Shown in pieces: positions 372 through 17,350 of a stretch of DNA of 64,000 nt (position 1 is the stretch's first letter; each line of letters opens with the position of its first letter). Under the pieces are notes generated by a model, which was not told the origin of the DNA, did no database searches, and was given only the letters and a program-made list of their open reading frames with translations. Origin of the DNA: Oscillatoria sp. FACHB-1407. Its GTDB lineage: Bacteria > Cyanobacteriota > Cyanobacteriia > Elainellales > Elainellaceae. A program made the translations under genes and the position numbers. Location of the stretch: positions 62,001 to 126,000 of the forward strand of contig NZ_JACJSA010000006.1 of NCBI RefSeq assembly GCF_014697545.1, read 5' to 3'.

Positions 372-480
372 GGTGGTGTTCCAAACCTGTTGATAACCTC
401 TGTAAGACCCCCTGTAGTCCCCCTTGGTAAGGGGGACGGCGACAGCCAGGGGTTAGTGGCAACAGATCTGAAACACTACC
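372..480 (+). mobile_element. MITE-like element D, copy 1 (109 bp, 9-bp target duplication)
   Basis: The element starts GGTGGTGTTCCAAACCTGTTG, and its end reads, on the other strand, GGTAGTGTTTCAGATCTGTTG: 21-bp terminal inverted repeats with 17 matches. It is flanked on both sides by GGTCAATGG (363-371 and 481-489), a perfect 9-bp duplication, although the surrounding array is itself repetitive. The centre is the palindrome CCCCCTTGGTAAGGGGG. Copy 2 at 17242-17350 differs at only two bases outside the flipped three-base centre. There is no ORF, so it would need a transposase in trans. Confidence 0.75.
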
Positions 481-510
481 GGTCAATGGTTTACGAATGA
501 CTAATGACTG

Positions 511-684
511 TTAACTAACGTCAGTTCGGTTTAAGAGCCCGGCGAATGAATTCGCGGCTACTAGAGCGAAGTCCACCGACGCGGACTACCGAAAATCAAG
601 GTTTGACGAACCGACGCAGGTCGGTTTTGCTCTGATAGCGGCGGTTTTAACCGCCGAAATCCTGATCCCGAATTCACGTTAACT
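511..684 (+). repeat. MITE-like repeat family A, copy 1
   Basis: A roughly 175-bp copy runs from TTAACTAACGTCAGTTCGG to CCGAATTCACGTTAA. The ends are imperfect inverted repeats (AACGT.A.TTCGG), and internal dyads such as CGGCGGTTTTAACCGCCG give strong secondary structure. Its right end lies directly before the ATG of the hydrolase at 686; an inverted copy begins at that gene's stop codon. Other copies are at 1598, 4394, 10598, 18980, 37875 and 44980. Confidence 0.7.
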
Positions 685-685
685 A

Positions 686-1600
686 ATGCCTCATACCCCC
701 TTCTATCTCATCCGTATGAAAAGCTTATTTGCGTCGTTTCGCTGGTTGTCTCTGAGTGTAGTGGGGTTGCTGCTCGTTGCCTATGGCGGGATTTGTCTCT
801 ATCTCTATTTTCGACAGACCCGCTTCATTTTCTTTCCATCCCCTTACATTGAGACGACTCCTGACGAGTTTGGCATGGCGTATGAGGATGTGTGGTTGTC
901 TGTGGGCAATGGCAATCCCCCTGCCCAGCTACATAGCTGGTGGATTCCGGCGCAATCAACGTCACGAGGTGTTGTGTTATATCTGCATGGCAACGGTGCC
1001 AATATCGGTGCCAATGTCGCTCAGGCAGAGCGATTTCATCGGTTAGGGCTATCGGTGTTGTTGATCGACTATCGTGGCTATGGCAAGAGCACAGGCGGTT
1101 TTCCCTCGGAGGTGAAGGTCTATGAAGATGCAGCGATCGCCTGGAATTATCTGACGCAGGAACGGCAGATTCCGCCGCAACAGATTTTGCTGTACGGGCA
1201 TTCCCTGGGAGGGGCGATCGCCACTCAATTAGCCATTCAGCAGCCCGATGCAGCCGGGTTGATTGTGCAGTGTTCGTTCACCTCCATTCGGGAGATGACC
1301 AACCGTATGCCGCCTTATCGTCTGTTACCAATCGATCTCGTGTTGACTCAACGGTTTGACTCAATTCACAAAGTGCCCCGTTTACAAATGCCAGTGTTGT
1401 TTATTCATGGCATAGCAGATACGGAAGTCCCGGCGGATATGAGTCAGAGCTTGTTTGATGCGGCTCCTGAACCGAAACGACTCTGGCTAGTCCCTGGGGC
1501 AGGGCATAACAATGTGGGAGATACCGCAGGAGCAGAATACTTGCGAGTGGTGGAGCAATTCGTGCAGGAAACGATCCCTAATCCAGCAGTGATTGATTAA
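686..1600 (+). CDS. Alpha/beta hydrolase, membrane-anchored
   Basis: 304 residues. An N-terminal hydrophobic segment (about residues 18-40) is followed by an alpha/beta-hydrolase domain like those of the BEM46/ABHD13-type hydrolases. The oxyanion region LYLHGNGANIG lies near residue 100, the nucleophile elbow GHSLGG near 170, an acidic residue in IHGIADTEVP near 247 and the histidine in VPGAGHNN near 275, so the Ser-Asp-His triad looks complete. Substrate is unknown. ATG 686 follows repeat family A by two bases and has no clear ribosome-binding site; ATG 716 (MKSLFASF) is an alternative start that keeps the membrane anchor. The stop codon TAA overlaps the next repeat copy, so the gene is exactly bracketed by inverted repeats. 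Confidence 0.8.
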   Translation: MPHTPFYLIRMKSLFASFRWLSLSVVGLLLVAYGGICLYLYFRQTRFIFFPSPYIETTPDEFGMAYEDVWLSVGNGNPPAQLHSWWIPAQSTSRGVVLYLHGNGANIGANVAQAERFHRLGLSVLLIDYRGYGKSTGGFPSEVKVYEDAAIAWNYLTQERQIPPQQILLYGHSLGGAIATQLAIQQPDAAGLIVQCSFTSIREMTNRMPPYRLLPIDLVLTQRFDSIHKVPRLQMPVLFIHGIADTEVPADMSQSLFDAAPEPKRLWLVPGAGHNNVGDTAGAEYLRVVEQFVQETIPNPAVID

Positions 1601-1757
1601 TGTGAATTCGGGATCAGGATTTTGGCGGTTGAAACCGCTGCTGTCGGCACAAAACCGACCTGTATCAGTTCGTCTAACCCTTGATTTTTGATAGCCTGCG
1701 ACGGCAGATTTGGTTCCGGTCGCCGTGAATTCATTTGCCAGGGTCTTAAACTTGGTC
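1598..1757 (-). repeat. MITE-like repeat family A, copy 2 (inverted)
   Basis: This copy reads in the opposite direction to copy 1: TAATGTGAATTCGGGATCAGG at its left end, then the GGCGGTTGAAACCGC hairpin, and a degenerate far end (CCAGGGTCTTAAACTTGGTCA). The first TAA is the stop codon of the hydrolase at 686-1600. It also separates that gene from the convergent methyltransferase, whose stop is at 1763. Confidence 0.65.
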
Positions 1758-1762
1758 ATTTC

Positions 1763-3778
1763 CTAACCCTTCTGGCACCAAAACCGATACATAGCCGAGA
1801 AGGCAGTGGGATGAGTTGCCTCAAATTGGTCGAGCCAGGTCAGATTAGTTAGGGTGGGATCGTCCGGAAACTGAGCTTTGTATGCCTGAGTTAAATCGGG
1901 GGCGATCGGCTCTAGCCCAATCAAGTGTAAACCAAGGTGCTCTAGGATTTCGGCAATTTGTGGCAGGGTGTAGTTTTGCTCTTGCACATGAAAGATCAGA
2001 TCTCGACAACCGCTTAAGCTGTAGAAATCGGGCGATCGCATCACCTGTGTCACCAAATCATCGGTATTCAACTCAAAGATGGCTTGTCTGGCTTGCCGAA
2101 TGCCGTTGGTCGTCTGTTCAAAGCCTCGTTTGGCAATGAATGCTCGTGCTGACTGGACAGGTTGTCGGACGCGATCGTTATACAAAGCAATTCGCATGAT
2201 CCCCATCGGCTTCAACAGGTTGACGAGCACCCGCCAACCCGCTACCGGATCGTCCAGATGGTGTAACACACCCACCGACTCAATTACCGCAAAGGACTGT
2301 TGCAGTGATCCCAACTCCAAAATATCGCCCTGATAGAAAGTGATGTTTTGCACACCGAGTTCCGTTGCCATGCGACTGGCATAAGCAAGACTGGCACGAC
2401 TGAGATCAACAGCAACTACATTGCTGTTTTCGTAGGTTTGAGCCACGTCGATCGCGTGTTTGCCCGTGCCACATCCAGCTACGAGAACTTGTAGAGGTTC
2501 TTGCAAAAAGGGGGGTGGAGAAAAGTGGGGTAGTAGGCTAGTCAATAGGGTAGTCAGCGGACGAGGAGCGATCTTCGGAAGGCTAATCCAGCGAGGGTAA
2601 GGATTTTCCTCGTATTGAGTTTGAACCGCGAGGGAGATTTCATCTTGAATTGGAGTGATTGCCTGAAGGGTTGTTTGGATAGTCTGTTCTTGTTGGCGAT
2701 CGCGCACACTCCGTTTGACCAGCAATCGCATCAGGGGATGCCAGGATTCGGAGGTAACCTCTAACAGGCGATCGCTCCCGCATAGAGTGTGCAATGAAAG
2801 GTAGGTTGCGATCGTTGCGAGTTGCAGTTGAAATTCTGTAGTCGTGACAGGAGTCGTGACAGCCGATAATAACTGCTGCTTAAGCTGGGTTTGGTGCTGC
2901 TGTAGTGTTTGCTCTTCAGCCGCACTGACCGCAAAGACATACTCATTGTTGAAACACTGCACAGCTAGAGCCGCTACAAATGCGAGTGAGTTTGGGTCGG
3001 GCGATCGCTCCAACAGTTGCTTGCGGAGGTGAGTCAGGAAGATTTCTACTTCCGGGTCAACCAAAACTGACCGTATCAAAATCTGCTGGAGTAACGATTG
3101 CTGAAACAGCCACTCCAACTCTGATTGGGCTGAATTGATTAAAGTTGCTTCACGGTCGTGCAACAGACGAGTCATCTCTGGAGTCAGCTTGAGTAGATAG
3201 GTGGCGATCGCCCCCAGGGTTTGCTGATCCACTTCTGGCAAGTCAAAGCAATGCTCTATCGTTTGCAAGAACTCCGCATCCACAGTTGCAAAGGCTAAAT
3301 GGGGCAAACACCGGGCAAATCGAGAGAGGTAGTCTAAGTTTTGGGGATCGAGCCGCACCGCAACATAGGCATGGTTAAAGGCAACATCCCACTCACCTCG
3401 ATTGACTAAAACCCCAGCTAGACGGTGATGCACGGCGGGATCGCTGGGAGATTGCTGTAACGCCTGACGATAGATTGCTTCTGCTGTCTCCAGATTGCCG
3501 TTGCTGGAGTAGCGATCGCCTGCTTCTAACAATATCCCCACCAGTTCCGTTGTCCATGCTGTGACCTGATCTGGCTCCCCTTGAGCCAACACATACACCC
3601 AGGTAGATTCTGCCGCCAATGCATCACCCGCTAGCAGTTGCGCCAAACCCAACCGCCAGTAATGAGACGCTTCATCTGGCTCAGCCTCAATGCACTGCTC
3701 ATACAGAGCGATCGCCTGATCGGGTTGCTCGTGCGACAGAGCCTCGGATGCCTGGTGCAGCCATTGGGAAATAGCCAT
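1763..3778 (-). CDS. TPR protein fused to SAM-dependent methyltransferase
   Basis: 671 residues. The first 160 or so form tetratricopeptide-type helical pairs (for example AIALYEQCIEAEPDEASHYW and ETAEAIYRQALQQSPSDPAV). A middle helical region without a recognised domain follows. A class I methyltransferase lies in the last third: motif I is VLVAGCGTGKHA near residues 427-440, followed by VVAVDLSRASL and the ESVGVLHHLDDP motif. The family usually methylates small molecules or proteins; the acceptor here cannot be told. The start ATG is at 3778. It is divergent to nothing close and convergent with the hydrolase. Confidence 0.8.
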   Translation of the reverse strand: MAISQWLHQASEALSHEQPDQAIALYEQCIEAEPDEASHYWRLGLAQLLAGDALAAESTWVYVLAQGEPDQVTAWTTELVGILLEAGDRYSSNGNLETAEAIYRQALQQSPSDPAVHHRLAGVLVNRGEWDVAFNHAYVAVRLDPQNLDYLSRFARCLPHLAFATVDAEFLQTIEHCFDLPEVDQQTLGAIATYLLKLTPEMTRLLHDREATLINSAQSELEWLFQQSLLQQILIRSVLVDPEVEIFLTHLRKQLLERSPDPNSLAFVAALAVQCFNNEYVFAVSAAEEQTLQQHQTQLKQQLLSAVTTPVTTTEFQLQLATIATYLSLHTLCGSDRLLEVTSESWHPLMRLLVKRSVRDRQQEQTIQTTLQAITPIQDEISLAVQTQYEENPYPRWISLPKIAPRPLTTLLTSLLPHFSPPPFLQEPLQVLVAGCGTGKHAIDVAQTYENSNVVAVDLSRASLAYASRMATELGVQNITFYQGDILELGSLQQSFAVIESVGVLHHLDDPVAGWRVLVNLLKPMGIMRIALYNDRVRQPVQSARAFIAKRGFEQTTNGIRQARQAIFELNTDDLVTQVMRSPDFYSLSGCRDLIFHVQEQNYTLPQIAEILEHLGLHLIGLEPIAPDLTQAYKAQFPDDPTLTNLTWLDQFEATHPTAFSAMYRFWCQKG

Positions 3779-3838
3779 AGCATGACATTTACAGTTCTCC
3801 TTCAGTGTAGTCGGGGGCTATGGTTTGCCGGGAATAAA

Positions 3839-4273
3839 TCAGGAGCTTTTTTCTAGCTCAAATCGTGTGCAAGCGTCTGACGGTTCTCTAGAATCCGGCT
3901 GATTTTCCTGCTCTTGAGGCAATTGCCAGGTTTCGACATTCAGCCCCAGATCGACCATGACCTGATTAGTTGCCCAAGTCGCTCCCTCAAACAGTTGCAC
4001 CATTTCCAGAGAAGCAGACTCTAATTTTTGTCCAGTCATGTCGTACAGATTTACCTCCCCCGGTGCATCGCTGCCCTGTCCTGGCATCGCAATCAACATC
4101 GGGTAAGAACGCACGACGATGCAAAATTGACCATTCTGACTGGATTCAGTACTACGAATGTAAGACTGACAAGCCGTTAAAAACGTTGTGATTGACAACA
4201 GAAGCAAACTTCTCAAGCGGGATGATGGGTAGACGTTTCGGGGATAGCGCGATCGCCAAAGGGTCATAGTCAT
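3839..4273 (-). CDS. Putative lipoprotein, conserved hypothetical
   Basis: 144 residues. An arginine-containing start is followed by a hydrophobic stretch and the lipobox LTAC near residue 35, so it is predicted to be cut and lipidated at that cysteine. The mature part contains CIVVRSYPMLIAMPGQGS and a paired-looking later cysteine (ACTRFELE). No enzymatic motif is visible. The stop lies 60 bp before the start of the TPR-methyltransferase on the same strand, so the two could be cotranscribed. Function is unknown. Confidence 0.6.
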   Translation of the reverse strand: MTMTLWRSRYPRNVYPSSRLRSLLLLSITTFLTACQSYIRSTESSQNGQFCIVVRSYPMLIAMPGQGSDAPGEVNLYDMTGQKLESASLEMVQLFEGATWATNQVMVDLGLNVETWQLPQEQENQPDSREPSDACTRFELEKSS

Positions 4274-4393
4274 CCAGTCCAGCGTTGAACTCAGCTAAAT
4301 CTAATTCAGCCTTTTGTAGAGTTTTTTGAACTGTGAATTTGAACTGTGAATTAGACGCAGGTTAGTAGCACGACACAGTAGACTTGAACTAAA

Positions 4394-4564
4394 TTAACGT
4401 CAATTCGGGTTAAGCACTTGGCGAATGAATGCGCGGCTATCAAGACGCAGTCCACTGTTGCGGACTACCGGAAATCACAGGTTCGCTCAACCGACGCAGG
4501 TTGGTTTTGTGCCGATAGCTGCGGTTTCAACCGCCAAAATCCTGAATCTCGAACTCAGGTTAAA
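4394..4564 (+). repeat. MITE-like repeat family A, copy 3
   Basis: It starts TTAACGTCAATTCGGG and ends with CTCGAACTCAGGTTAA, with internal hairpin sequence CGCAGTCCACTGTTGCGG and GCGGTTTCAACCGC. It fills most of the 344-bp gap between the lipoprotein gene and hfq. The hfq start codon lies 54 bp beyond it, so the repeat is likely within or next to the hfq promoter or leader. Confidence 0.7.
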
Positions 4565-4617
4565 TTAGCAACAGCGATCGCCACTTTTTGAAAGGATTAC
4601 TGATAAGGATTACTGAT

Positions 4618-4833
4618 ATGTCAACCGAACTTGAAACTGGTCTACCGAGCATCCGCCAAATTCAAACCATGATTCGGGAAGAGCGGGAAGTTGAACTCAA
4701 GCTGATCACAAATGATCTATTGACGGGCAAGATGCGCTGGCAAGATCAAAACTGCATTTGTCTCATTGATCACTACGACCAGCCCACAATTATCTGGCGC
4801 AATGCCATTGTATTTATCAAACCCAAGCTCTAG
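4618..4833 (+). CDS. hfq: RNA chaperone Hfq, cyanobacterial type
   Basis: 71 residues, the usual length of the divergent cyanobacterial Hfq (Sm-like fold). The match extends over the whole protein: LPSIRQIQTMIREEREVELK, NDLLTGKMRWQD, then HYDQPTIIWRNAIVFIKP, which carries the Sm2-like strand. In Synechocystis the homologue is needed for motility and works with the pilus ATPase PilB1 rather than as a classical sRNA matchmaker. ATG 4618 is preferred over an upstream TTG at 4588 because of length and the AAGGAT site 8 bp upstream. The leader has a tandem repeat GGATTACTGATA, giving two ribosome-site-like sequences. The stop shares CTAG with the convergent antiporter stop. Confidence 0.9.
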   Translation: MSTELETGLPSIRQIQTMIREEREVELKLITNDLLTGKMRWQDQNCICLIDHYDQPTIIWRNAIVFIKPKL

Positions 4834-7181
4834 TTGTCTGGTTCGCGTGACCCATCGGCTGATACCAGATTTGGCACCGTCTCACTCACCGGAACTGTGA
4901 CGGCTGCAACTGGCAATTTAGATACCAGCGTCAATGGCACGATCCACTGCTGAGCCAGCTTTAGATTAGCATCACTGCCACATAACAAGAGGCGATCGCC
5001 TAGCTCCAACTCAGCGGTGCCATTGGGGAAGCGAATGAATTTGCCCTCGCGGCGAATAGCCTGTACCTGCACGCCATGTTGACGGCTCAGATCTAGCTCA
5101 GCCAGGGTCTTGTTGATAACTGGGCTATGATTAGGCACGATCAGCCACTGACAGCACGCCATTTCCTTTGCACGGACTGGGGCTTCGCCTTTTGCCAGAT
5201 CCTTAAACGCAGCTAGCTCCTCCGGCTCACCCACCAACAACAGGCGATCGCCTCCTTGCAACACCGTTTGACTGTCTGGATAGTCCTTTTCCTGCCCGTC
5301 TGTGCGTTGAATCGCCAGCAGGCTAACCCCTAGCAACCGCCGCAAATCAGCCTCTTCGAGGGTCATTCCCACTAAAGGAGACGTATCCGGTAAGGTGTAC
5401 CACTGGCGGTTCATATCCTGTGTTGCACTGCGGAGTTCGCGGGACACCTCATCCAGAGACTGTTCTGGGCGCAGGTCAAGGTAATGACTGTTGCGGATGT
5501 CTGCCACTTCCCGTTGGACTGTTCCAGGGTTCAATCCCATTTGAACTAGTAGATGGGAGGATAGCTCTAAACTTGCTTCAAATTCCGGTTGTACCACCTC
5601 CCGTGCGCCCAGTTGATACAGTAATTCGATGTCTTTATCCTGTCCTGCTCGGACGACAACATCCAGATCAGGAGCTAGTTCCAGGGCACGCTTGAGGCAC
5701 AGCCGAGTGCTCATCGGGTCAGGTAGGGCGATCGCCATTCCTTTGGCGCGGGTCACTCCTGCCGCCTCCATGACGTGTAGACTCGCCGCGTTGCCGTAGA
5801 TGTAGGACACACCCAGTTCACGCACCTGCTGAATCACCTGCTCCGACTGGTCAATGACCACAACCGGATAGTTGTGCTCCCGCAACAGGCGGACAATATT
5901 GCGACCGACTCGCCCATATCCGCACACCACAACATGATCTTGGGTGGGCACATCCTCTGACATCTCAACGGCGCGATCGGCACCCTCCAGCCAATCCTTA
6001 AACCAGGGAACAGTCTCTGCCCACAGGAAGAGTTGGGGCACCAATCGCAACACAAACGGTGTGAAGACTAACGTAACGGCAGTTGTTCCTAAAATCAGCA
6101 GGTAAACCTGACGAGAGACGATCCCCAATGCCTGACCTTTACTCGCCAGGACGAAGGAAAATTCCCCAATTTGAGCTAACCCCAACCCGGCAATCAAGGC
6201 AGTCTTGAGGGGATAGCGGAATGCTCGCACCAGCGGTGTGACGATGAGAAACTTGCCGACAAAAACCAGAGCAACCAATCCCAGGATCAATTCCAGGTTG
6301 TTCCAGATAAACACCGGGTCGATCAACATCCCCACGGCTGCAAAAAACAAACTCGCGAAGATATCACGAATCGGTTCTACGTAGGTCAGCGTTTGGTCGG
6401 CGTACTCCACCTCTGAGATCATGAGTCCGGCGATGAATGCCCCCATCTCAATCGACAGCCCCAAATGCTCTGTCAACAGGGCAATGCCAAGACAAAGCGC
6501 GACTACACCCAGCAGAAATAACTCTCGGCTCTCCGTCCGTGCCAGCAACCGCAACAGCGAGGGAATCACCCAAATGCCAGCGGCGATCGCTCCTGCGGCT
6601 AGCAGAGCGGTTTGCAACAATGCCCACCCGACAGCAATACCAATCTCATCAGCGGGGCGATCGAGGGCAGGCAACACCGCTAACATCAGTCCTAATGCCA
6701 GGTCTTGCACTACCAAAATGCCCAGCATGACTCGACCGTGTGGGGTTTCCGTCTCGTTGCGCTCCATCAAACACTTGAGCACAACCGCGGTCGATGAGAG
6801 CGACAAGATAGCCCCTAAAAACACCCCTTGAGTAGGAGATGTAACCCAGCCAATACCAATCGAAACCAGAGCCGTCACTAAAATCGTGGAGAGAATTTGT
6901 AGCGTCCCTCCCCCCAAACTGATGGCTTGCACTTTCCTCAATTCAGCAAAGGAGAATTCCACACCCAGTGCAAACAGCAAAAATGCAGCTCCCAGTTGTG
7001 CCAGTGTTTCTACCTGAACTAATTCCTTTATTAGCCCCAACCCAGCAGGGCCAACTAACACCCCTCCCACCAAATAACCCAGCAACACGGGCTGTTTTAA
7101 CAACGCGGCGAGCAATCCGCCTCCAGCTGCTGCTGCTAATACCATTACTAAATCAACAATCAGCCTGACGTCTTCTTGCAC
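4830..7181 (-). CDS. CPA2 cation:proton antiporter with RCK (TrkA) domains
   Basis: 783 residues. Residues 1-390 form about 12 membrane segments of the Na+/H+ exchanger (KefB-like CPA2) fold, including the QLGAAFLLFALGVEFSFAEL segment. A TrkA-N nucleotide-binding domain begins near residue 413 (VVVCGYGRVGRNIVRLLRE, a GxGxxG Rossmann loop). Two TrkA-C domains follow (about 590-660 and 690-755). The family exports K+ or Na+ in exchange for protons under control of bound nucleotides. Ion specificity cannot be read from the sequence. It converges with hfq, the two stop codons overlapping in CTAG. Confidence 0.9.
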   Translation of the reverse strand: MQEDVRLIVDLVMVLAAAAGGGLLAALLKQPVLLGYLVGGVLVGPAGLGLIKELVQVETLAQLGAAFLLFALGVEFSFAELRKVQAISLGGGTLQILSTILVTALVSIGIGWVTSPTQGVFLGAILSLSSTAVVLKCLMERNETETPHGRVMLGILVVQDLALGLMLAVLPALDRPADEIGIAVGWALLQTALLAAGAIAAGIWVIPSLLRLLARTESRELFLLGVVALCLGIALLTEHLGLSIEMGAFIAGLMISEVEYADQTLTYVEPIRDIFASLFFAAVGMLIDPVFIWNNLELILGLVALVFVGKFLIVTPLVRAFRYPLKTALIAGLGLAQIGEFSFVLASKGQALGIVSRQVYLLILGTTAVTLVFTPFVLRLVPQLFLWAETVPWFKDWLEGADRAVEMSEDVPTQDHVVVCGYGRVGRNIVRLLREHNYPVVVIDQSEQVIQQVRELGVSYIYGNAASLHVMEAAGVTRAKGMAIALPDPMSTRLCLKRALELAPDLDVVVRAGQDKDIELLYQLGAREVVQPEFEASLELSSHLLVQMGLNPGTVQREVADIRNSHYLDLRPEQSLDEVSRELRSATQDMNRQWYTLPDTSPLVGMTLEEADLRRLLGVSLLAIQRTDGQEKDYPDSQTVLQGGDRLLLVGEPEELAAFKDLAKGEAPVRAKEMACCQWLIVPNHSPVINKTLAELDLSRQHGVQVQAIRREGKFIRFPNGTAELELGDRLLLCGSDANLKLAQQWIVPLTLVSKLPVAAVTVPVSETVPNLVSADGSREPDN

Positions 7182-7366
7182 GGGTTCCTAGCGATCCTGA
7201 GAGAAATGTTAAATAGTCTTAATTCTTAGAATACAGAGTTTTGTAGGTGACTGGGAGAGGAGATTGGGTGAAACAGGTAATTTGTAAAAACAGTTGGAAC
7301 TCCTGGGAAAGGAATGTTAGTCTATCTGGTCAAGAGTGTTTGCCTCCTCATCGTCGCCTCCTCACC

Positions 7367-8278: not shown

Positions 8279-8417
8279 AGCTTACCTGTAGCATTGGCGC
8301 GAAAGTTTCACACAATCTATATCAAATTCGGTGCCTTTTATGGAATCTGGGGCAAACTATAGCTGAGGGACATAAGCTTGCCCCCTCAACGTCTCCCTGG
8401 ATATAGAGAACAACAAT

Positions 8418-9214: not shown

Positions 9215-9283
9215 GTGCAATAAGCGTCATGACGGTTGCTATACAATGCAAAAAGGATTTAGTTGTGTCTAGGTAGTAACACT

Positions 9284-9499
9284 ATGGCAGTTAAGAGAGG
9301 CGATATCGTCCGCGCAGTTCGAGAAAAGCTAGACAATAGCCTGGAAGCGAAGGCAAGTGATACCCGTTTCCCCCCTTATATTTTTGAGACAAAGGGTGAA
9401 GTCGTAGACGCACGAGGCGATTATGTGCTGGTCAAGTTTGGGCATGTGCCTACTCCAAATGTTTGGCTCCGAGCTGACCAACTCGAAAAATTTGAATAG
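9284..9499 (+). CDS. ndhO: NAD(P)H-quinone oxidoreductase subunit O
   Basis: 71 residues, the normal length for NdhO. The family signature is present throughout: [39 protein letters not shown] and [15 protein letters not shown]. NdhO is a small oxygenic-phototroph-specific stromal/cytoplasmic subunit of the NDH-1 complex used in cyclic electron flow and respiration; it contacts the ferredoxin-binding region. ATG 9284 gives the standard N-terminus, so the longer frame from 9263 is not used. It is the first gene after the terminator at 9191 and lies 40 bp before the malate dehydrogenase gene, so the two may be cotranscribed. Confidence 0.92.
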
Positions 9500-9539
9500 C
9501 TATTTGTGATTGTGGCGATCGCTGCTATGGGGTTCCATT

Positions 9540-10505
9540 ATGATTTCACTTAACCCTTCCCCCGTTTACTGTCAGCATGCAAAGGTTGCGATTGTTGGTG
9601 CAGGTAACGTTGGCGGAACCTTGGCTCAACGCATTGTCGAACGTAATCTGGCAGATGTTGTGTTACTGGATGTCGTGTCAGGTCGTCCGCAGGGAATTGC
9701 ACTCGATCTGATGGAGGCTAGCGGCATCGAAGGACATAGCCGTCACATCAGCGGTACGACTAACTATGCGGATACGGCTGGGTCTGACATTGTGGTGATT
9801 ACCGCAGGCTTGCCTCGCAAACCCGGCATGAGTCGGGATGATCTGTTGAGGACTAACGCCAAAATCATCACAGATGCTGCAAAACAGGCGATCGCTCACT
9901 CTCCAGATGCTCTGCTCATCGTTGTCACTAATCCGCTGGATGTCATGACCTATCTGGCATGGCAAGCCAGTGGTCTACCCACAAACCGGGTGATGGGTAT
10001 GGCAGGTATTCTTGACTCTGCCCGGTTTCAAACCTTTATTGCCCTGGAGTTGGGGATTGCTGCTGCCGATGTCAACGCGATGGTGTTGGGGAGTCATGGT
10101 GACTTGATGGTGCCTTTACCCCGCTATTCCACGGTGAGCGGTGTGCCCATTACAGATTTGTTTGATGCTTCAACCATTGATCGCTTAATCGAGCGGACAC
10201 GCAATGGTGGGGCTGAAATTGTTGAATTGATGCAGACAGGCGGCGCGTACTATGCTCCTGCTTCTTCGACCTGTGTCATGATTGAAACGATTCTGCTCAA
10301 TCAACCCCGTCTCTTGCCCGTAGCCGCTTACCTGCATGGTCAGTATGGGCTGGAGGATATTTTTATTGGTGTGCCCGCCCGCTTAGGCTGTCGCGGAGTG
10401 GAGGGCATTTTAGAACTGAAGCTGACTGAAGCTGAATCTACTGCACTTCATTCTTCTGCTCAGGCAGTGCGGCAGAATATCGAGAAGGCTCTGGCTTTGT
10501 TGTAA
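9540..10505 (+). CDS. mdh: Malate dehydrogenase
   Basis: 321 residues from ATG 9540; a TTG 30 bp upstream is in frame but less likely. The NAD-binding loop [11 protein letters not shown] is at about residue 17. The arginines of [11 protein letters not shown], in the active-site loop of malate rather than lactate enzymes, are followed by [10 protein letters not shown] and the catalytic histidine in [11 protein letters not shown]. The protein is the LDH-like (type III) malate dehydrogenase that interconverts malate and oxaloacetate with NAD(H) in the cytoplasm. Length and motifs are complete. Confidence 0.92.
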
Positions 10506-10506
10506 T

Positions 10507-10594
10507 TATAGGTTTGGTCAGAAAGCTTAAGGCAACGGCAATGGCTCAAACCCTGATCTGGACAGGCTCTCTGACTCGCCTCCGCCTTACCATA
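10507..10594 (+). repeat. MITE-like repeat family B, copy 1 (right end missing)
   Basis: It starts TATAGGTTTGGTCAGAAAGC and continues to CTGACTCGCCTCCGCC. The terminal GGCTATGGCTATA seen in copy 4 is lost, and family A copy 4 begins immediately after. Full copies of the family are at 34874-34977 and 37734-37838. Confidence 0.65.
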
Positions 10595-10597
10595 CCA

Positions 10598-10742
10598 ATT
10601 TGAATTGAAACCGCGACAAAACCCTGTACGGGTTTGGCATTGCCAAACCCCTCCTAAACCTTGATTTTCCGTAGTCCGCGTCGGCGAACTTCGCTCTAGT
10701 AGCCGCGAATTCATTCGCCGGGCTCTTAAACCGAACTTAACT
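10598..10742 (-). repeat. MITE-like repeat family A, copy 4 (inverted)
   Basis: Reads inverted, ending in CGCCGGGCTCTTAAACCGAA. It abuts family B copy 1 and, with it, fills the 291-bp spacer between the convergent malate dehydrogenase and LCP genes. The CGTAGTCCGCGTCGGCG and AGTAGCCGCGAATTCATTCG parts match copy 1 closely. Confidence 0.65.
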
Positions 10743-10796
10743 GCATCTCTCTTCCACGTTTAGCCATTGACCAATGACGAAGGACAAATAATCATC

Positions 10797-12203
10797 TCAT
10801 TGATCTGTGGTTGCTGAGTGCATTTCTTGCCAGTCTTGCCCCAATTGGATCGTGACGTCGGATTGCAAATCGCCTGTACTTTCAACGCGAACTTCTCCAG
10901 TTCCCAGAACTTGCCGAATCGCTTCAGCCGTCTCGCGATCGCCATCTTGGGCAATAATGCGGGTCACTCTCAACGGTTGGCTCCAGGGGTCATCAACGAT
11001 GACGTTGCCGAAGCCTGCTTCTCCTAGAGTGTCGATGACGCGATCGATCGTGGGATCATCGCCAGTACTATCTTGAATTGCAACTCGGACATAGTCTGGA
11101 ATGACCTCTTCATCGACCACAGCACCCGCCTCAAAGTATCGGGCTGCCATCTCTTCAATGCGACTGGAACTGGGTAACCAGTAACTCACCTCATATTCCG
11201 TGGGAGAACTAAATTCTCCTGGCAGCATTAACATCTGCACACTGGAACGGTTCATTTCTGAAGCAAAGCTGGTGAGCGCGACCAACTCTTCGACGCTGAG
11301 GTTGGTGTCGAGGTTTTCTTGAATGACCGATAAGATTTGGGGTAAGCGGGTAATGGTAGCTGGGCTGAGAGCTTGCTCCATTAACGCCCGCATCATCATC
11401 TGTTGGCGTTGAATGCGCCCAATATCCCCGTTGCGATCGTGCCGGAAGCGCAAAAACTGCAATGCCTGACTGCCGTTGAGGTGCTGATCCCCTTGGTTGA
11501 GGTTGATGTACAGGTGTTGGCTGTCGTCCTGATAGTACATATCATAGGGAACGTAAATATCCACCCCCCCCAGAGCATCAATTAGCTTTTCAACCCCCTG
11601 CACGTTGATGCGAATGTAGCGATCGACAGGTACCCCACCTAATAAATCACTGGTTGAAGAAGCGGCTAGTGCAGGACCACCATAGAGGTTAGCTTCATTC
11701 AGCTTGGTGAGCCCAACTCCTTCAACCCAGGTGCGGGTGTCGCGGGGCAACGACAACACAACCAACTGCGAGGTTTCTGGGTCAAACCGCAGCAACAACA
11801 TTGTGTCAGACAATCCCTCAAACGAGTTCACCAGAGTGTGGTAGCCCAAATCCTGGGTTTCTGGTGGAGGTTCGTTGACATCAGAACTCAATACCTTAAC
11901 CCCCAACACGAGGATATTGACAGGGCGAGACAATCGCGGCAAGCGAAAATCCATTCCTGTGGAGATGTTTTCCTGATCAAACACCTCAGCTTCTTCGGGG
12001 CTTAGCTCTGTTTGCATCAGCGGCGTACTGGCGATCGACACTGCCACCAGTGCCCCTGCGGTTGCGGACACCATCGCCACGCCCAACAATCCCAGCACTA
12101 GCCAGAGTCCTCTATTTTTATTGGGTTTAGAGGGTTTTCGTCGCGGATCTTTGGGTTGAGGGGAGGGAGGATAATAAATTCGAGTTGACACAAACTTGCT
12201 CAC
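10797..12203 (-). CDS. LytR-CpsA-Psr (LCP) family protein
   Basis: 468 residues. A positively charged, proline-rich cytoplasmic start (KDPRRKPSKPNKNR) is followed by one membrane segment (GLWLVLGLLGVAMVSATAGA, about residues 32-58). The LCP domain covers about 95-290, with VVLSLPRDTRTWV and FLRFRHDRNGDIGRIQRQQ carrying the conserved arginines and aspartates that bind polyprenyl pyrophosphate and metal. A LytR C-terminal domain (about 375-460) ends the protein. LCP enzymes transfer polyprenyl-linked glycans to the cell wall. In cyanobacteria the acceptor and glycan are not settled. Confidence 0.88.
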   Translation of the reverse strand: MSKFVSTRIYYPPSPQPKDPRRKPSKPNKNRGLWLVLGLLGVAMVSATAGALVAVSIASTPLMQTELSPEEAEVFDQENISTGMDFRLPRLSRPVNILVLGVKVLSSDVNEPPPETQDLGYHTLVNSFEGLSDTMLLLRFDPETSQLVVLSLPRDTRTWVEGVGLTKLNEANLYGGPALAASSTSDLLGGVPVDRYIRINVQGVEKLIDALGGVDIYVPYDMYYQDDSQHLYINLNQGDQHLNGSQALQFLRFRHDRNGDIGRIQRQQMMMRALMEQALSPATITRLPQILSVIQENLDTNLSVEELVALTSFASEMNRSSVQMLMLPGEFSSPTEYEVSYWLPSSSRIEEMAARYFEAGAVVDEEVIPDYVRVAIQDSTGDDPTIDRVIDTLGEAGFGNVIVDDPWSQPLRVTRIIAQDGDRETAEAIRQVLGTGEVRVESTGDLQSDVTIQLGQDWQEMHSATTDQ

Positions 12204-12409
12204 ACTAAAGGAAATGCAAAGTCAATTTTGAGGAGATTACAAAGTCGATATTTCAAAGACACTATATCTAGAGCTATGAAACTTGAAGTGACGTCTTGAG
12301 CAAATATAGACCCTATATCTGTAAATTTCACTAATTTTCTAAAAAATTCTTTTAATCGACGTAATATTTCTGGTTTTTAATGAACCTTCACTAGCTTTAA
12401 CCTAAATCC

Positions 12410-12446
12410 ATGACAGTGTCATCGTACTACTGGTTGATAGTACGAT
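12410..12446. promoter_or_regulatory. Two adjacent dyads upstream of the LCP gene
   Basis: ATGACAGTGTCAT (12410-12422) is an odd 13-bp palindrome, and next to it ATCGTACTA/TAGTACGAT (12421-12446) forms a perfect 9-bp inverted repeat with an 8-base spacer. Neither is followed by a T-run on either strand, so they are more likely operator sites or a transcript structure than a terminator. They lie about 210 bp upstream of the LCP start in a 329-bp spacer. Confidence 0.35.
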
Positions 12447-12480
12447 TTGGATGGGTGAGTACCCTGAATGGTTCTTTAAG

Positions 12481-12550
12481 GGATGCGATCGCCGTTAGGG
12501 GATGCGATCGCCGTTAGGGGATGCGATCGCCGTTAGGGGATGCGATCGCC
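12481..12550. repeat. Tandem 19-bp repeat built on HIP1
   Basis: Three complete and one partial unit of GGATGCGATCGCCGTTAGG occur head to tail, each holding a GCGATCGC octamer. The last units run into the 3' end of the gene at 12533-12892 and encode its final residues (GDRIP) and stop. This is a minisatellite made from the genome's over-represented octamer. Confidence 0.85.
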
Positions 12551-12892
12551 CACCTGGCTCAACCCGGGTAGCCAGATAGATTTACGTCGCCACAACCGCA
12601 CCATCAGCCAAACATTAGTTAAGAAATAACCAGAGGTCAGCAGGCTACTCATGATCAAAAAAGGCAATGCGACCGTATCAGATGCCTGTGCTCCAGTGCC
12701 TAATAGCAGATACCCAAACAACCAGCCTGTTGCCAACAATACCGCCAATCGACTGACTGCCCGTTGTTGTTTGTTCCCCTGTCGTCGATAGAGCGACCAT
12801 AGAGCCGGGAAAAAACCAACCACTGGAATCAGGTAAATAAACGTTTGTAATCGACGCAGGTCTTGTTCACCAAAGGGATCAGCGGGTTTCAT
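12533..12892 (-). CDS. Small membrane protein, conserved hypothetical
   Basis: 119 residues with about three hydrophobic segments (FIYLIPVVGFFPALWSLY, LAVLLATGWLFGYLLLG, LPFLIMSSLLTSGYFLTNVW). The start ATG 12892 opens MKPADPFGEQDLRRLQTF, the style of a cyanobacterial family without assigned role. The C-terminal end is encoded by the HIP1 tandem repeat, so the original end may have differed. A purine-rich tract lies directly upstream. Confidence 0.6.
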   Translation of the reverse strand: MKPADPFGEQDLRRLQTFIYLIPVVGFFPALWSLYRRQGNKQQRAVSRLAVLLATGWLFGYLLLGTGAQASDTVALPFLIMSSLLTSGYFLTNVWLMVRLWRRKSIWLPGLSQVGDRIP

Positions 12893-12898
12893 AAGCAG

Positions 12899-12972
12899 GG
12901 GAGAAGGAGAAGAAAAAAAGAAGAGGGAAGAGAGAAAAAGAAGGATAAACGATAAAGGCTGAAGGATAAAAG
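12899..12972. repeat. Purine-rich low-complexity tract
   Basis: GAAGGAGAAG-like purine sequence followed by GGATAAACGATAAAGGCTGA and AAGGATAAAA. The same string recurs at 16219-16252 and, inverted, at 16440-16470; similar tracts are at 52408-52478 and 63601-63662. The 246-bp spacer also has a mirror-like pyrimidine tract at 13090-13139. Function unknown. Confidence 0.5.
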
Positions 12973-13138
12973 TAAAGAAGAGTAATCGATGGAGAATACC
13001 GTTGATCTGTGTGGATAAAGTACATCCAGAGTCTTATGTTCTAATCATTTGCACTTGGAGGTTAGACAGATCGAGGGCTGAAAGCATCTATTTTTTTCTT
13101 CATCTTTCTTCTATTTTCTTTTTTCCCTTTTCTTTCTT

Positions 13139-13798
13139 CTATGCGGCTAACTCCTTCTGAAGAAAGTCTAACGTACGACTCCAGGCATCGGTTGCTGCTT
13201 CAGCGTTATACACTTCAGGGCGAGTGTCATTAAAAAAGGCGTGGTCGGTGTTGGGATAGGTGTGAGTGGCGATCGCCCCTCCTGCCTCTTGAATGGAAGC
13301 TGCTAACGCCTTAACCGCATCTGCTGGAACGAAACTATCATTCTCAGCAAAGATCCCTAAAACGGGAGCAGTGAGTTTAGAAAAGTCGGGATGGACGTTG
13401 GGATGAATGCCATAAAAATCAACGACGGCTCCAACATTGTCGCTGACAGTTGCCGCTAACAATGCCAGTTGACCACCCATGCAAAAGCCAACTACCCCAA
13501 TCTTGGGAAGGGTCACCGCCTCTTGTCCCAATAAAAATCGGGCTGCAACCTGCAAATCTTGAGCGGTTTGGTCAATGTTGAGTGCCATCAGCAATCGCCC
13601 CGCCTCATCGGGAGAGGTGGTTTGAATCCCTTTAAAGAGATCGGGAGCAAGAGCAACAAAGCCTGCTGCTGCAAAGCGATCGGCAACTGATTTGATGTGA
13701 GGCACCAGACCCCACCATTCCTGTAGCACAATCACCCCTGGACCTGATCCAGATTCTGGCAACGCCAAGTAGCCAATTCCGTCAATGTCCATTCCCAT
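13139..13798 (-). CDS. Dienelactone hydrolase family protein
   Basis: 219 residues from ATG 13798. The longer frame to 13897 would overlap the divergent EamA gene, and GGAG lies 10 bp before 13798. The alpha/beta-hydrolase fold carries the dienelactone hydrolase signature: the nucleophile is a cysteine in GVVGFCMGGQLAL, with the acid in FAENDSFVP and the histidine in NTDHAFFND. VIVLQEWWGL near residue 25 is also typical. The founding enzyme opens dienelactone in chloroaromatic breakdown, but most cyanobacterial members have no known substrate. The gene is divergent from the exporter at 13865, only 66 bp away, so the two share a promoter region. Confidence 0.85.
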   Translation of the reverse strand: MGMDIDGIGYLALPESGSGPGVIVLQEWWGLVPHIKSVADRFAAAGFVALAPDLFKGIQTTSPDEAGRLLMALNIDQTAQDLQVAARFLLGQEAVTLPKIGVVGFCMGGQLALLAATVSDNVGAVVDFYGIHPNVHPDFSKLTAPVLGIFAENDSFVPADAVKALAASIQEAGGAIATHTYPNTDHAFFNDTRPEVYNAEAATDAWSRTLDFLQKELAA

Positions 13799-13864
13799 GC
13801 CTGCACACTCCGAGTAAGGTTTTATTACCGACAATACTCTAGCACTCCACCTAATTGAACGTTC

Positions 13865-14803
13865 ATGACCTCTGTAACCAAGCCCACCGCATGGCAAGTC
13901 GGACTGATCCTCACGCTGGGGATTGTCTCTGTTTCGACAGCCGCTATCTTTATTCGTTTGGCATTAGCGGCGGCTGATGCTCGTGGGGTTGGGTTTAGTT
14001 TAGTCCTGGCAGCCCTGCGACTGACGATGGCGGCGTTGTTGCTGGTTCCAGCATGGCGTAATTTTCGGAGCACATCATTTCAACCCAACGCCATGTATTA
14101 CTCATTAGCTGCGGGGGGTTGTCTGGCACTGCACTTTGGCACCTGGATTACGTCGCTGTCTTATACGTCGATCGCCGCTTCGACAACACTCGTAACCACT
14201 AATCCGATCTGGGTAGCGTTGTTGTCATGGGTGTGGTTTAAGGAAAAGCCAACGGTTCTAACAACCACAGGAATTGGCGTTACCCTGGCAGGGGGGGTGT
14301 TAGTTGGGTTGACGGGTTCAGAGACAGCGGATGCGGGTAGTAATCCTCTCTTAGGCAATATTCTGGCTCTGATCGGCTCCTGGGCAGTGAGTTTGTACTT
14401 TTTGTTGGGGCGGGAGGCGCAGCGACGGGGGCTTGGCATTGGTAGCCATGCGGTGTTGACCTATAGCACCGCTGCTCTGGTGTTGCTGCCGTTGCCGTTG
14501 CTGTTTAATTCGGCTTACACGGGCTATTCGGGGGAGGTGTACCTGTATATCTTTTTGATGGCGTTGTTTCCGCAAGCGATCGGGCATACCAGTTTTAACT
14601 GGGCGGTGCGCTGGATTTCACCGACTTTAGTGACGTTGGTGATTTTGGCGGAACCGGTTGGCTCAGGCATTCTGGGCTTTATCGTCTTTCGTGAAAACCC
14701 TGGCATTCGGGTGTTGGTTGGGGCGGTGATTATTCTGGCGGGGGTGGCGATCGCCGTCCTGGGTTCTCGTAAATCGGCTGAAACGGAGGCAAACCAAGCC
14801 TAG
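13865..14803 (+). CDS. EamA family transporter (drug/metabolite exporter)
   Basis: 312 residues with about ten membrane segments in two EamA repeats, as usual for the family. The first repeat includes SLSYTSIAASTTLVTTNPIW and the second FNWAVRWISPTLVTLVILAE, the family's characteristic stretches. Members export amino acids, purines or other metabolites by proton exchange; the substrate here is unknown. The start ATG at 13865 is supported by the divergent arrangement with the dienelactone hydrolase. The RmlD-like gene follows 63 bp later on the same strand. Confidence 0.88.
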   Translation: MTSVTKPTAWQVGLILTLGIVSVSTAAIFIRLALAAADARGVGFSLVLAALRLTMAALLLVPAWRNFRSTSFQPNAMYYSLAAGGCLALHFGTWITSLSYTSIAASTTLVTTNPIWVALLSWVWFKEKPTVLTTTGIGVTLAGGVLVGLTGSETADAGSNPLLGNILALIGSWAVSLYFLLGREAQRRGLGIGSHAVLTYSTAALVLLPLPLLFNSAYTGYSGEVYLYIFLMALFPQAIGHTSFNWAVRWISPTLVTLVILAEPVGSGILGFIVFRENPGIRVLVGAVIILAGVAIAVLGSRKSAETEANQA

Positions 14804-14866
14804 AATGGTAGGCGATGCTGATCAAGGACAACCGCGACCCTTGCGATAACGCCGGAGGCGCACGCT

Positions 14867-15739
14867 ATGAAAAAACTGTTAGTGACGGGTGCCAGTGGGT
14901 TCTTAGGGTGGAATGTTTGTCAGGCGGCTCAAGCCAATTGGCAAGTCTATGGCACCTATGCAACCCATCCAGTGACAATTTCTGGTGTGACAACGTTGAA
15001 GGTTGACCTGACTGACTACAGGGCTTTGCAGGAGCTATTTCAGTCGCTACAACCCGATGCGGTGATTCACCTAGCGGCGCAATCTAGCCCTAATGTGTGT
15101 CAAACCCAACCTGAAGCGGCTTATGCAATTAATGTCACTGCCTCAGCAAATCTAGCGGGCTTGAGTGGCGATCGCGCTATTCCCTGTGTGTTTACTTCCA
15201 GCGACCTGGTGTTTGACGGACGAAACGCCCCTTACACAGAAACTGATCCGGTGTGTCCCATCAGTCACTACGGCGAGCAAAAAGTGTTGGCAGAGCAAGA
15301 AATGCGATCGCGCCATCCGGGGGTGGCGGTTTGTCGTATGCCGTTGATGTTTGGCTACGCACCGAATGCCGTCAGCTTTCTTCAGCCCTTTCTCCAAACG
15401 ATGCGATCGGGGAAGCCCTTAAGCCTGTTTGTGGATGAGGTTCGTACTCCTGTTAGCGGTCGGGATGCGGCTCAAGGTTTGTTGCTGGCACTCGAACAGG
15501 TACAAGGTTACCTGCATTTGGGAGGATGCGATCGCCTGTCTCGGTATGAGTTTGGTCGTCACATGGTGGAAGTTCTGGAGTTGACGGAGGCGAATATCAG
15601 TGCCTGTCGGCAAGCCGATGTGCCCATGCCTGCGCCTCGCCCTGCTGATGTCTCACTTGACAGCTCCAAAGCCTTTGAGTTGGGATACAATCCCGGTTCT
15701 ATTCGCGAGGAGTTAGCGTTTCTGCGAGACGTGCTTTAA
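14867..15739 (+). CDS. SDR family oxidoreductase, RmlD/MAT2B-like
   Basis: 290 residues. The extended short-chain dehydrogenase fold has the nucleotide loop VTGASGFLGWNV at residues 5-16, a DLT acidic turn near 45, HLAAQSSPN near 75 and the active-site tyrosine and lysine in ISHYGEQKVLAEQ near 135. The closest family is RmlD (dTDP-4-dehydrorhamnose reductase) and its MAT2B relatives. Without rmlABC genes nearby, the rhamnose role is only a possibility. It follows the exporter on the same strand. Confidence 0.8.
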   Translation: MKKLLVTGASGFLGWNVCQAAQANWQVYGTYATHPVTISGVTTLKVDLTDYRALQELFQSLQPDAVIHLAAQSSPNVCQTQPEAAYAINVTASANLAGLSGDRAIPCVFTSSDLVFDGRNAPYTETDPVCPISHYGEQKVLAEQEMRSRHPGVAVCRMPLMFGYAPNAVSFLQPFLQTMRSGKPLSLFVDEVRTPVSGRDAAQGLLLALEQVQGYLHLGGCDRLSRYEFGRHMVEVLELTEANISACRQADVPMPAPRPADVSLDSSKAFELGYNPGSIREELAFLRDVL

Positions 15740-15817
15740 TTCGTGGTCAATCTAAAATCCGTTGATTGGGACATATCCCGTTCGAGATACCATAGAGACA
15801 GTGAAATGGATTGAGCT

Positions 15818-16213
15818 ATGGTTGAACGTCCTATCAAAAAATCTGAGCGGCAAGCGATCGCCCAATCGAGCGAAGAGGGCGGCGAAGCTCAAGGAACTGA
15901 ACTGACTGCTAAGCGGGATACCCCGAAACCTGTTCGGGCAAAAGATAAGCCCCCCGGTGGCAAGTCAGACGAGCGGAGATCAGACGATCGAAAATCAAAA
16001 GGGAAAGGCAAAGGCGGCAAACGGGGATCACGGGACGACGACCAACCCAAAGCTCCTGCTAATCTGGCAACGATGCGCGGTCCGCGCCCTGTAAAAGCCC
16101 AACCTGAACCAGAACCCGTAGTAGACGAAACCCCGACAGATGAATCGTTAGACGAAGCCTTGACTGAAGAAACGACAGACGAGGCAACTGAGGGAGTAGA
16201 GAGTGAGGCGTAG
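15818..16213 (+). CDS. Disordered charged protein, conserved hypothetical
   Basis: 131 residues, almost entirely charged and polar. A basic middle (KSKGKGKGGKRGSR, about 63-77) is followed by NLATMRGPRPVKAQPEPEP and an acidic tail rich in Asp, Glu and Thr. There is no predicted fold, signal peptide or membrane segment. The basic glycine/lysine stretch could bind nucleic acid or the ribosome, but nothing proves it. ATG 15818 is preceded by a short AT-rich leader. Confidence 0.55.
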   Translation: MVERPIKKSERQAIAQSSEEGGEAQGTELTAKRDTPKPVRAKDKPPGGKSDERRSDDRKSKGKGKGGKRGSRDDDQPKAPANLATMRGPRPVKAQPEPEPVVDETPTDESLDEALTEETTDEATEGVESEA

Positions 16214-16481
16214 GGGCAAAGGAAGGATAAACGATAAAGGCTGAAGGATAAAAGAAGAGGGAGTAGGGGGGCGGCGCGACGTGCGACTTAAAGGTTTAGC
16301 TCCCCTATTTTTTGTTGAGCAGTCCAGTCTGCTTCAGCAGACCTCATGCCATTAGCCCGCACTTGAGTTGTGGGTGGGGCTCCTGACTCGCCTCCGTCCC
16401 ATCAAATGTGGCTACAACTATAGCCTTCGCGATCGCCCTTTTCATGCTTCAGCTTTTATCGTTTATCCTTCTTTATTTCTC
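16214..16481. other. Spacer with repeat remnants
   Basis: The spacer contains the purine tract shared with 12941-12971 at its left (16219-16252), a dyad CTGCTTCAGCAG near 16330, a fragment of family B at 16378-16424, and an inverted copy of the purine tract (CTTTTATCGTTTATCCTTC, near 16453). No gene is seen. Confidence 0.5.
16378..16424 (+). repeat. Family B fragment, copy 2 (right half)
   Basis: The sequence GACTCGCCTCCGTCCCATC then AAATGTGGCTACAACTATA matches the right end of the full family B copy at 34874-34977, including the terminal TATA. The left half is missing. Confidence 0.6.
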
Positions 16482-17123
16482 CTACGGTTCAACAATGACC
16501 GTTGTACCCATTTCGATCTGAGCAAACAACGCCACAACGTCCTCATTTCGCATCCGTACGCACCCATTTGAGGCAGCCCGTCCAATCGACGAAAGGGTCG
16601 GTGTGCCGTGAAATCCGATAATGCCATTGGGCATTCGAGTAAAGCCAATCCAACGTACTCCCAGCGCACTATTGGGCCCCGGTGGGGTGACTTCACCCGT
16701 CCAGGGATTTTGCCAGCGAGGGTTTTCGATCATCTGAAATACTTGAAAGCGACCCGTTGGAGTGGGTGTATCCGATCGCCCAATCGCCACGGGGTAACTG
16801 GCTAAGACGCGATCGCCCTGATATAGATAGACTCGGCGTTGCCCCAGCTTCAACACAATGTGGGGTTCTGGCTCCTCAATCGTCGGCAGATAGTTGGATG
16901 GCGCAGCCAGCGGCGGCAAATCGGGAATACGAACATCAACGTAGGAAAATGAGAACGACGGATGAAGCGGCGTGAGTGGTAGAGGAGTGTTGGCGATCGC
17001 AGGAGTGGAGCCGAAAATGACCTGGGTTGCTCCGATAGAAAGGGCGATCGCAACCTGACGAGAGAATAAAGGGAAAGGTTTAGACCATTCAAACCGTTGC
17101 ATACAAGGGTTAACCGTTGACAT
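16482..17123 (-). CDS. L,D-transpeptidase (ErfK/YbiS/YcfS/YnhG)
   Basis: 213 residues. A signal-like hydrophobic segment (QVAIALSIGATQVIFG then STPAIANT, about residues 24-45) is followed by the YkuD domain from about residue 88 (IVLKLGQRRVYLYQGDRVLA). The active site motif is complete: the histidine in GFHGTP and the cysteine in ASNGCVRM near residue 195. The enzyme makes 3-3 cross-links in peptidoglycan or attaches proteins to it, in the periplasm. ATG 17123 is the first candidate; ATG at residue 8 (MQRFEWSK) would shorten the signal only slightly. Confidence 0.9.
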   Translation of the reverse strand: MSTVNPCMQRFEWSKPFPLFSRQVAIALSIGATQVIFGSTPAIANTPLPLTPLHPSFSFSYVDVRIPDLPPLAAPSNYLPTIEEPEPHIVLKLGQRRVYLYQGDRVLASYPVAIGRSDTPTPTGRFQVFQMIENPRWQNPWTGEVTPPGPNSALGVRWIGFTRMPNGIIGFHGTPTLSSIGRAASNGCVRMRNEDVVALFAQIEMGTTVIVEP

Positions 17124-17241
17124 CCACTCTAAGCCGACGAATCTGATGAGTTGTTGAGCCGAGGTAAGAAGCCCAACGTCTGTATAGGTTACGCTATGCT
17201 AACCTATCCTCAGGCTGATTTTACCCGCTAAACTTTCATCT

Positions 17242-17350
17242 GGTGGTGTTCCAAACCTGTTGATAACCTCTGTAAGACCCCCTGTAGTCCCCCTTACCAA
17301 GGGGGACGGCGACAGCCGGGGGTTAGTAGCAACAGATCTGAAACACTACC
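17242..17350 (+). mobile_element. MITE-like element D, copy 2 (109 bp, 9-bp target duplication)
   Basis: Same length and ends as the element at 372-480. It is flanked by CTTTCATCT on both sides (17233-17241 and 17351-17359), a perfect 9-bp target duplication in a non-repetitive setting. The core palindrome reads CCCCCTTACCAAGGGGG, the reverse complement of that in copy 1. The right duplication includes the stop codon (TGA on the minus strand, 17354-17356) of the neighbouring gene, so insertion was at the very end of that gene. Confidence 0.85.

Follow-up and report, generated by a model that had tools for sequence, protein, structure and literature searches.

The stretch analysed here, referred to as the window, comprises 64,000 nucleotides of Oscillatoria sp. 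FACHB-1407 (contig NZ_JACJSA010000006.1, positions 62,001 to 126,000 of the forward strand) and contains two copies of a 109-bp miniature inverted-repeat transposable element (MITE), each with a central hairpin. Comparison between copies shows that the loop of this hairpin has been replaced by its reverse complement without change to the arms and ends, and the same change is found in unrelated short-loop hairpins of the genome. The favoured reading, held with a probability of about 75%, is that the element is a non-autonomous MITE of the IS1 family whose loop is subject to hairpin-mediated minute inversion, a process acting on short-loop hairpins of varied sequence.

Loop states among the copies of the element

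The two copies in the window (Table 1) differ at element positions 77 and 87 and in the three loop bases (positions 55–57), and their 17-bp cores are exact reverse complements of each other. The core arms are perfect over 9 bp (GTCCCCCTT - loop - AAGGGGGAC), and copy 1 as a single strand is predicted to fold into a nested hairpin with the GGT loop at its tip (z = −3.6 as DNA and −4.3 as RNA, relative to shuffles). A sequence-only reading made earlier had described two 109-bp copies with perfect 9-bp duplications, two base differences besides the central three, and a reverse-complementary core, all of which are borne out; the ends it gave as 21-bp inverted repeats do have this length and orientation but are imperfect, matching at 17 of 21 bases (mismatches at positions 4, 10, 13 and 15).

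Table 1. Positions in the window of the two MITE copies, their target duplications, ends and core hairpins
Feature	Position	Strand	Remarks
MITE copy 1	372–480	+	109 bp
MITE copy 2	17242–17350	+	109 bp
Target duplication GGTCAATGG, left of copy 1	363–371	.	9 bp; identical to 481–489
Target duplication GGTCAATGG, right of copy 1	481–489	.	9 bp
Target duplication CTTTCATCT, left of copy 2	17233–17241	.	9 bp
Target duplication CTTTCATCT, right of copy 2	17351–17359	.	9 bp; contains stop codon of reverse-strand open reading frame 17354–18937
Left inverted end of copy 1, GGTGGTGTTCCAAACCTGTTG	372–392	+	19/21 bases as in left end of IS1-like copy in L067
Right inverted end of copy 1	460–480	-	18/21 bases as in right end of IS1-like copy in L066
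Core hairpin of copy 1	417–437	+	9-bp arms 417–425 and 429–437; loop 426–428, GGT
Core hairpin of copy 2	17287–17307	+	9-bp arms 17287–17295 and 17299–17307; loop 17296–17298, ACC

The loop was compared among 39 copies of 109 bp, which remain from 53 extracted rows after exclusion of 14 (L031, L038, L049–L055, L059, L061, L062 and the relatives L041 and L047). It is the most variable place of the element, and outside it only position 87 (10 G, 29 A) has more than three minority copies. Seven copies identical outside the loop comprise three with GGT and four with ACC, while a second identical background of 13 copies comprises eight with GGT, four with ACC and one with AGT. Loop state is independent of position 87 (G:A ratios of 6:15 for GGT and 4:12 for ACC; p = 1.0). 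All three loop bases are changed together in 16 of the 39 copies, as against 29 changes at the other 105 positions (87 excluded) over the whole set, in which single-base loop variants are represented by one AGT and one ATC.

Since copies identical elsewhere carry either GGT or ACC, and the loop is independent of position 87, point mutation is excluded as the source of the two states. The copies call for at least two flips of the loop, or for one flip combined with recombination or recurrent change at position 87, and the loop has flipped at least once and probably several times. The proposal of the sequence-only reading that the core flips while the arms stay fixed is thereby supported between copies, though not at any one place, and point mutations across many copies, which would have spoken against that proposal, are rejected by the identical backgrounds bearing both states.

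Inversion of the whole element was considered as another source of the loop states and rejected, the end-type markers being fixed across the 39 copies except for two isolated single bases (L006, L033). The element was also considered as a member of a known structured RNA family and rejected, as a search of the window against Rfam at gathering score gives a tRNA at 33080–33153 as its sole match. At window positions 408–437, CCCCC, a spacer, CCCCCTT, the loop and AAGGGGG follow one another and may give rise to an intrastrand triplex like those discussed in PMC4666352, where triplex-forming repeats are associated with instability in E. coli and described as abundant in cyanobacteria.

Reversed loops in other hairpins

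Hairpins with arms of at least 7 bp and with both flanks at least 75% alike were compared over 2,061,777 bases, comprising the window and some 2.0 Mb taken from the genome, hairpins near stretch ends and pairs of unclear orientation being dropped. This main survey contains 49 pairs with reverse-complementary loops, six of which are contributed by the MITE, and no pair in which the loop is only reversed or only complemented; the loops concerned are of 3 nt (28) or 4 nt (21). Exact reverse complements thus account for 49 of the 194 differing loop pairs (25.3%), compared with a mean of 1.9% and a maximum of 4.8% in 500 shuffles of the loops among hairpins, which give 9.6 such pairs on average and at most 23; 92 pairs with self-complementary loops were excluded from this comparison. 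The pairs belong to 11 loop classes, namely gga/tcc and gaa/ttc (each with two different sets of arms), taaa/ttta (two arms), atc/gat, cgac/gtcg, aga/tct, agga/tcct and acc/ggt, the last being that of the MITE. The arms differ between the flipping families, indicating that the reversal is independent of arm sequence, and because unrelated hairpin repeats share reversed loops, the reversal seems to belong to the short-loop hairpins of this genome rather than to the MITE.

With arms of at least 8 bp and alike flanks, 27 reverse-complementary loops are found and none that is reversed or complemented, a few of the 27 being weak (a 12-nt loop pair in a tandem repeat and two GTTTGGC pairs with weakly alike flanks, none of which is among the 49). 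A stricter run yields 17 reverse-complementary, 17 same and 28 other pairs among loops of 3 nt; among those of 4 nt the corresponding numbers are 3, 3 and 12. Loops of 10 nt are the same in 24 pairs of the main survey and differ in three, none being flipped; with few pairs at longer loops, a limit of loop length is suggested rather than shown. A site-specific invertase or invertible element was considered for these hairpins and rejected, as they have no common recombinase site and arms that differ between families.

A hairpin with 21-bp arms occurs at 33 genome sites, 15 of which are oriented by their flanks; the first subfamily contains four GAT and four ATC loops, and the second four TTT, two AAA and one AAT. 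Stretches L175–L189 represent a second dispersed element, with TATAGC-type borders, the 21-bp-arm hairpin and two subfamilies, each showing both loop orientations. The second hairpin of another element, present at 46 sites, has the loops TCC (18), TTC (12), GGA (11), GAA (3), AAA (1) and AGA (1), and in its neighbour TTC is replaced by GAA at a single one of these sites. Of the four possible combinations of states in the two hairpins, three are seen and the one with both turned is absent, so that two hairpins of one element vary in state separately. The window itself contains, at about 644, a GGCGGT[taaa] hairpin of another dispersed repeat, whose loop is reversed in one of 15 oriented relatives, and, at about 10637, a GTTTGGC[aat]GCCAAAC hairpin; two relatives, weakly similar to the latter, have the loop in reversed form.

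Evidence for loop reversal outside this genome is thin. A search of 60 genomes for the MITE gives matches in seven, its own included, and full-length relatives in G007 only (two, about 85%), whose loops GGC and GCC are reverse complements and yet differ at a single base. The core is found in two of 386 genomes, its own and G047 (one site, loop GAT); among named genomes it is present in two stretches, from a Leptolyngbyaceae metagenome-assembled genome (loop GGC) and from Kamptonema (loop AGT), and one plasmid match comes from Gloeocapsopsis (78%). The GTCCGC hairpin occurs in two of 40 genomes, with 108 sites in its own, where two GTCG and one ATCG are among those listed as against mostly CGAC or CGAT, and three sites in G021, all with CGTT. 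The hairpin family with the TCT loop occurs in eight of 40 genomes; three of 40 sites in its own genome have TCT (one of uncertain orientation), as do one of two sites in G007 and one of seven in G037, where the orientation rests on few bases. TCT is absent from G020 and G041, G023 and G048 have other loops, and a self-overlapping site in G038 was set aside.

Genomic copies and IS1 parentage

A similarity search of the genome (8.13 Mb, 66 contigs) gives at least 40 full-length or near-full-length matches and one partial match, with more copies possible as 40 of 88 candidates were scored. The core pattern, allowing up to three mismatches, is found at 49 sites (loops GGT 25, ACC 17, ATC 3, and AGT, GAT, GCC and GGC one each) and at none when read backwards as a control. 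Copies lie on both strands. Exact target duplications flank 16 of 51 extracted copies, against a chance expectation of about 0.001 by arithmetic; they are of 8 bp at nine copies and of 9 bp at seven, so their length is not always 9. Fifteen of these 16 are among the 40 similarity-search matches, and the remaining one is the 412-bp composite L049. The set of 51, from which the relatives L041 and L047 are excluded, also contains copies that are truncated or composite and whose borders are uncertain; shifting the borders by up to three bases adds only L009 as a possible duplication, which was left uncounted. Core sites within broken copies (e.g. that split between L056 and L057) are not among the extracted copies.

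In the window, GGTTAATG-like tandem repeats occupy positions 300–371, immediately before copy 1, whose insertion target lies inside this array. The duplication at copy 1 is therefore weak evidence when taken alone, and it is the other copies that settle the duplication. Insertion of copy 2 has left the adjoining open reading frame intact because its stop codon sits in the target duplication. Elsewhere in the genome, one copy is seemingly interrupted in its core by another insertion element (L056:617–669 and L057:209–274, at the ends of contigs C25 and C1), and GTCCCCCT is present at both contig ends, as expected of an 8-bp duplication. Larger composites of 365–539 bp (L049:545–956, L050:553–1091, L052:1626–1990 and L054:813–1206) have MITE-like ends and other dispersed repeats inside; none contains any of the IS1 gene matches of the genome, and L049 has an 8-bp duplication.

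A search of the genome with PF03400 (IS1 transposase) gives seven matches, two of which are nearly complete. L066 holds an 838-bp IS1-like element, in which InsA (zinc ribbon and helix-turn-helix) and the DDE part lie in different frames, the latter following an A-run. Its domains PF03400 (145.9 bits), PF12759 and PF03811 (the latter two InsA domains) are above cut-off; against NF033558, the DDE part passes (115.5 bits, cut-off 100), while the InsA part (81.6) is below. The flanks of this element have no matching duplication. L067 contains a decayed IS1-like copy with the ends GGTGGTGTTCCAGACCTGTGG and GGTAGTGTTCTAGACCTGTGG. The left end of the MITE resembles the left end in L067, and its right end the right end in L066 (Table 1). 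Annotated IS1 elements on Leptolyngbya plasmids also have ends similar to those of the MITE, and no target duplication was found at the three copies read, whose ends are alike. Target duplications of 8–9 bp are typical of the IS1 family. The end matches, partner genes and 8–9-bp duplications support IS1 parentage, and the element is best regarded as an IS1-type MITE, ordinary as such.

The identification as a MITE made by the sequence-only reading is accordingly upheld, with a family now attached, and further copies, for which it suggested a genome search, are present (49 core sites, 51 extracted copies). Its target duplications recur at 16 of the 51 copies and are absent at 35. The recent activity that it claimed is plausible, 13 copies sharing one haplotype outside the loop and seven another, but the seven PF03400 matches include no partner transposase that is clearly intact and has exactly matching ends; IS1-family elements with similar ends are present and mostly decayed.

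Mechanism, alternatives and known systems

An IS1-type transposase would recognise the two different ends of the MITE and make target duplications of 8 or 9 bp, and the perfect 9-bp inverted repeat around the 3-base loop would form a DNA hairpin within the element. When replication passes this hairpin, the nascent strand may switch at one arm to the complementary template, copy the loop from the other strand and then switch back, which would leave the loop reversed. A duplex of three bases cannot be turned by recombination of straight duplexes, and a hairpin, a cruciform or a strand switch is needed. Hairpin-mediated minute inversion is the most likely mechanism, probably by template switching, and the process would act on short-loop hairpins of various sequence, so that unrelated dispersed repeats show the same flip.

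Several points weigh against this reading. The evidence is a comparison between copies and not a direct observation of flipping in place, and the survey of 60 relatives contained no second genome of the genus. Template switching can leave repaired arms, but several copies retain changes in one arm only (positions 48, 49, 52, 54, 61 and 64), and no such repair is evident. Nor are the 49 pairs independent of one another, about 14 minority copies standing behind them (sum of oriented tallies), and several classes have a single minority copy (GGCGGT 14:1, GTCCGC 12:1, TGAGCG 6:1); the case therefore rests on the loop classes and the zero controls, and as some classes lie within one larger repeat, the independent families are fewer than 11. 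A 400-kb portion of the relative G002 gave no informative pair. As to parentage, 35 of the 51 copies have no exact duplication, and five of the seven IS1 gene matches are partial and four have a stop, three being without a stop in the matched stretch. Within the MITE, moreover, the appearance of repeated flips could arise from one old flip followed by recombination or by recurrent change at position 87.

This last possibility, in which GGT and ACC lineages descended from one ancestral flip were spread by transposition from two master copies while recombination or recurrent change at position 87 mixed the markers, is the strongest of the alternatives, though it is the less probable account. The large groups identical outside the loop are what a burst from few masters would give, and homoplasy or mixing is seen elsewhere in the element (C at position 54 in a single copy of each loop state, GGT and ACC; A at position 77 with either base at position 87). 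It would still require one inversion, and others of the same kind in the other hairpin repeats, and the loop shows no association with position 87. Ectopic gene conversion or homologous recombination between oppositely oriented copies, swapping only the palindromic core, is improbable, even though copies exist on both strands and no longer stretch of the element than the core gives a perfect alignment in reverse. At the ends, too, 17 of 21 bases align in reverse, but the end markers are fixed in the 39 copies but for the two single bases, which speaks against exchange with inverted copies; perfect homology extends over 9 bp per side, which is short for RecA, and no crossed-over duplication common to any two copies exists among the 51.

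An assembly or library artefact, with hairpins mis-joined in sequencing or assembly, is very improbable. The genome is a draft of 66 contigs and hairpins can cause chimeric reads, but the 9-bp arms of the MITE are shorter than the usual assembly words, so that words across the loop include asymmetric flank; several repeats with clear flanks show reversed loops, and one reversed loop each appears in G007 and G037, with orientation based on few bases. Independent point mutations at the three adjacent loop bases, for which the single-base loop variants AGT and ATC could be cited, have a negligible probability in view of the joint change in 16 of 39 copies and of the zero counts for reversed-only and complemented-only pairs beside 49 reverse-complementary ones.

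Hairpin-mediated inversion in multicopy elements would offer a natural assay with dozens of parallel trials, in which the rate of loop inversion could be measured against point mutation, arm length and loop length. Three adjacent differences that resemble strong divergence may then be a single event, with consequences for tree building, typing and the design of primers. A bolder extension, tentative and rather doubtful, is that short-loop hairpins in this free-living cyanobacterium, and perhaps in relatives, are reversible switches of 3–4 bases, turning so frequently that young mobile elements are already near an even mixture of the two states, as a bacterial counterpart of plastid minute inversions arising from the same replication habit.

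Among known systems, IS1-family insertion sequences and MITEs derived from insertion sequences share with the present element similar asymmetric ends starting GGTNNTGTT, 8–9-bp duplications and IS1 transposase genes in the genome; in contrast, the MITE has 109 bp and no gene, its internal hairpin is absent from the two IS1-like copies read, and the core occurs alone at single sites elsewhere. Nezha (Zhou et al. 2008) is, by its title, an active cyanobacterial MITE, and the likeness extends as far as that title. Correia elements of Neisseria, as treated in the available part of PMC10969869, are likewise MITEs with an inversion polymorphism, but there the element itself is said to invert, whereas here it is three loop bases only. 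Loop inversion is not mentioned in the available parts of PMC3733652 and PMC10969869, which deal with bacterial palindromic repeats and MITEs, and no report of it in bacterial MITEs was found among the titles and abstract openings retrieved in searches of open-licence literature, which is weak evidence of novelty.

Minute inversion as such is already known from ribosomal RNA (rRNA) genes and plastids. In rRNA hairpins, according to the accessible part of PMC8794818, 69 mutation clusters show loop inversion only, bacterial examples included, and inter-strand template switching is proposed, which accounts for loop inversion with unchanged perfect stems; such events are rare there and the loops conserved, whereas here they make up a quarter of the differing loop pairs in dispersed repeats. 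For plastids, PMC2903610 and PMC12371153 connect small inversions with hairpins; both cite Kelchner and Wendel (1996) for minute or small inversions of the chloroplast, which PMC2903610 describes as frequent in several plant lineages. In these, as here, a stretch between short inverted repeats is reversed; the plastid cases typically cover 4 to 50 bp according to the review, while the present ones concern loops of 3–4 nt in bacterial, multicopy mobile repeats. The resemblance points to a possible, testable connection between plastid minute inversions and those of the cyanobacteria related to plastids.

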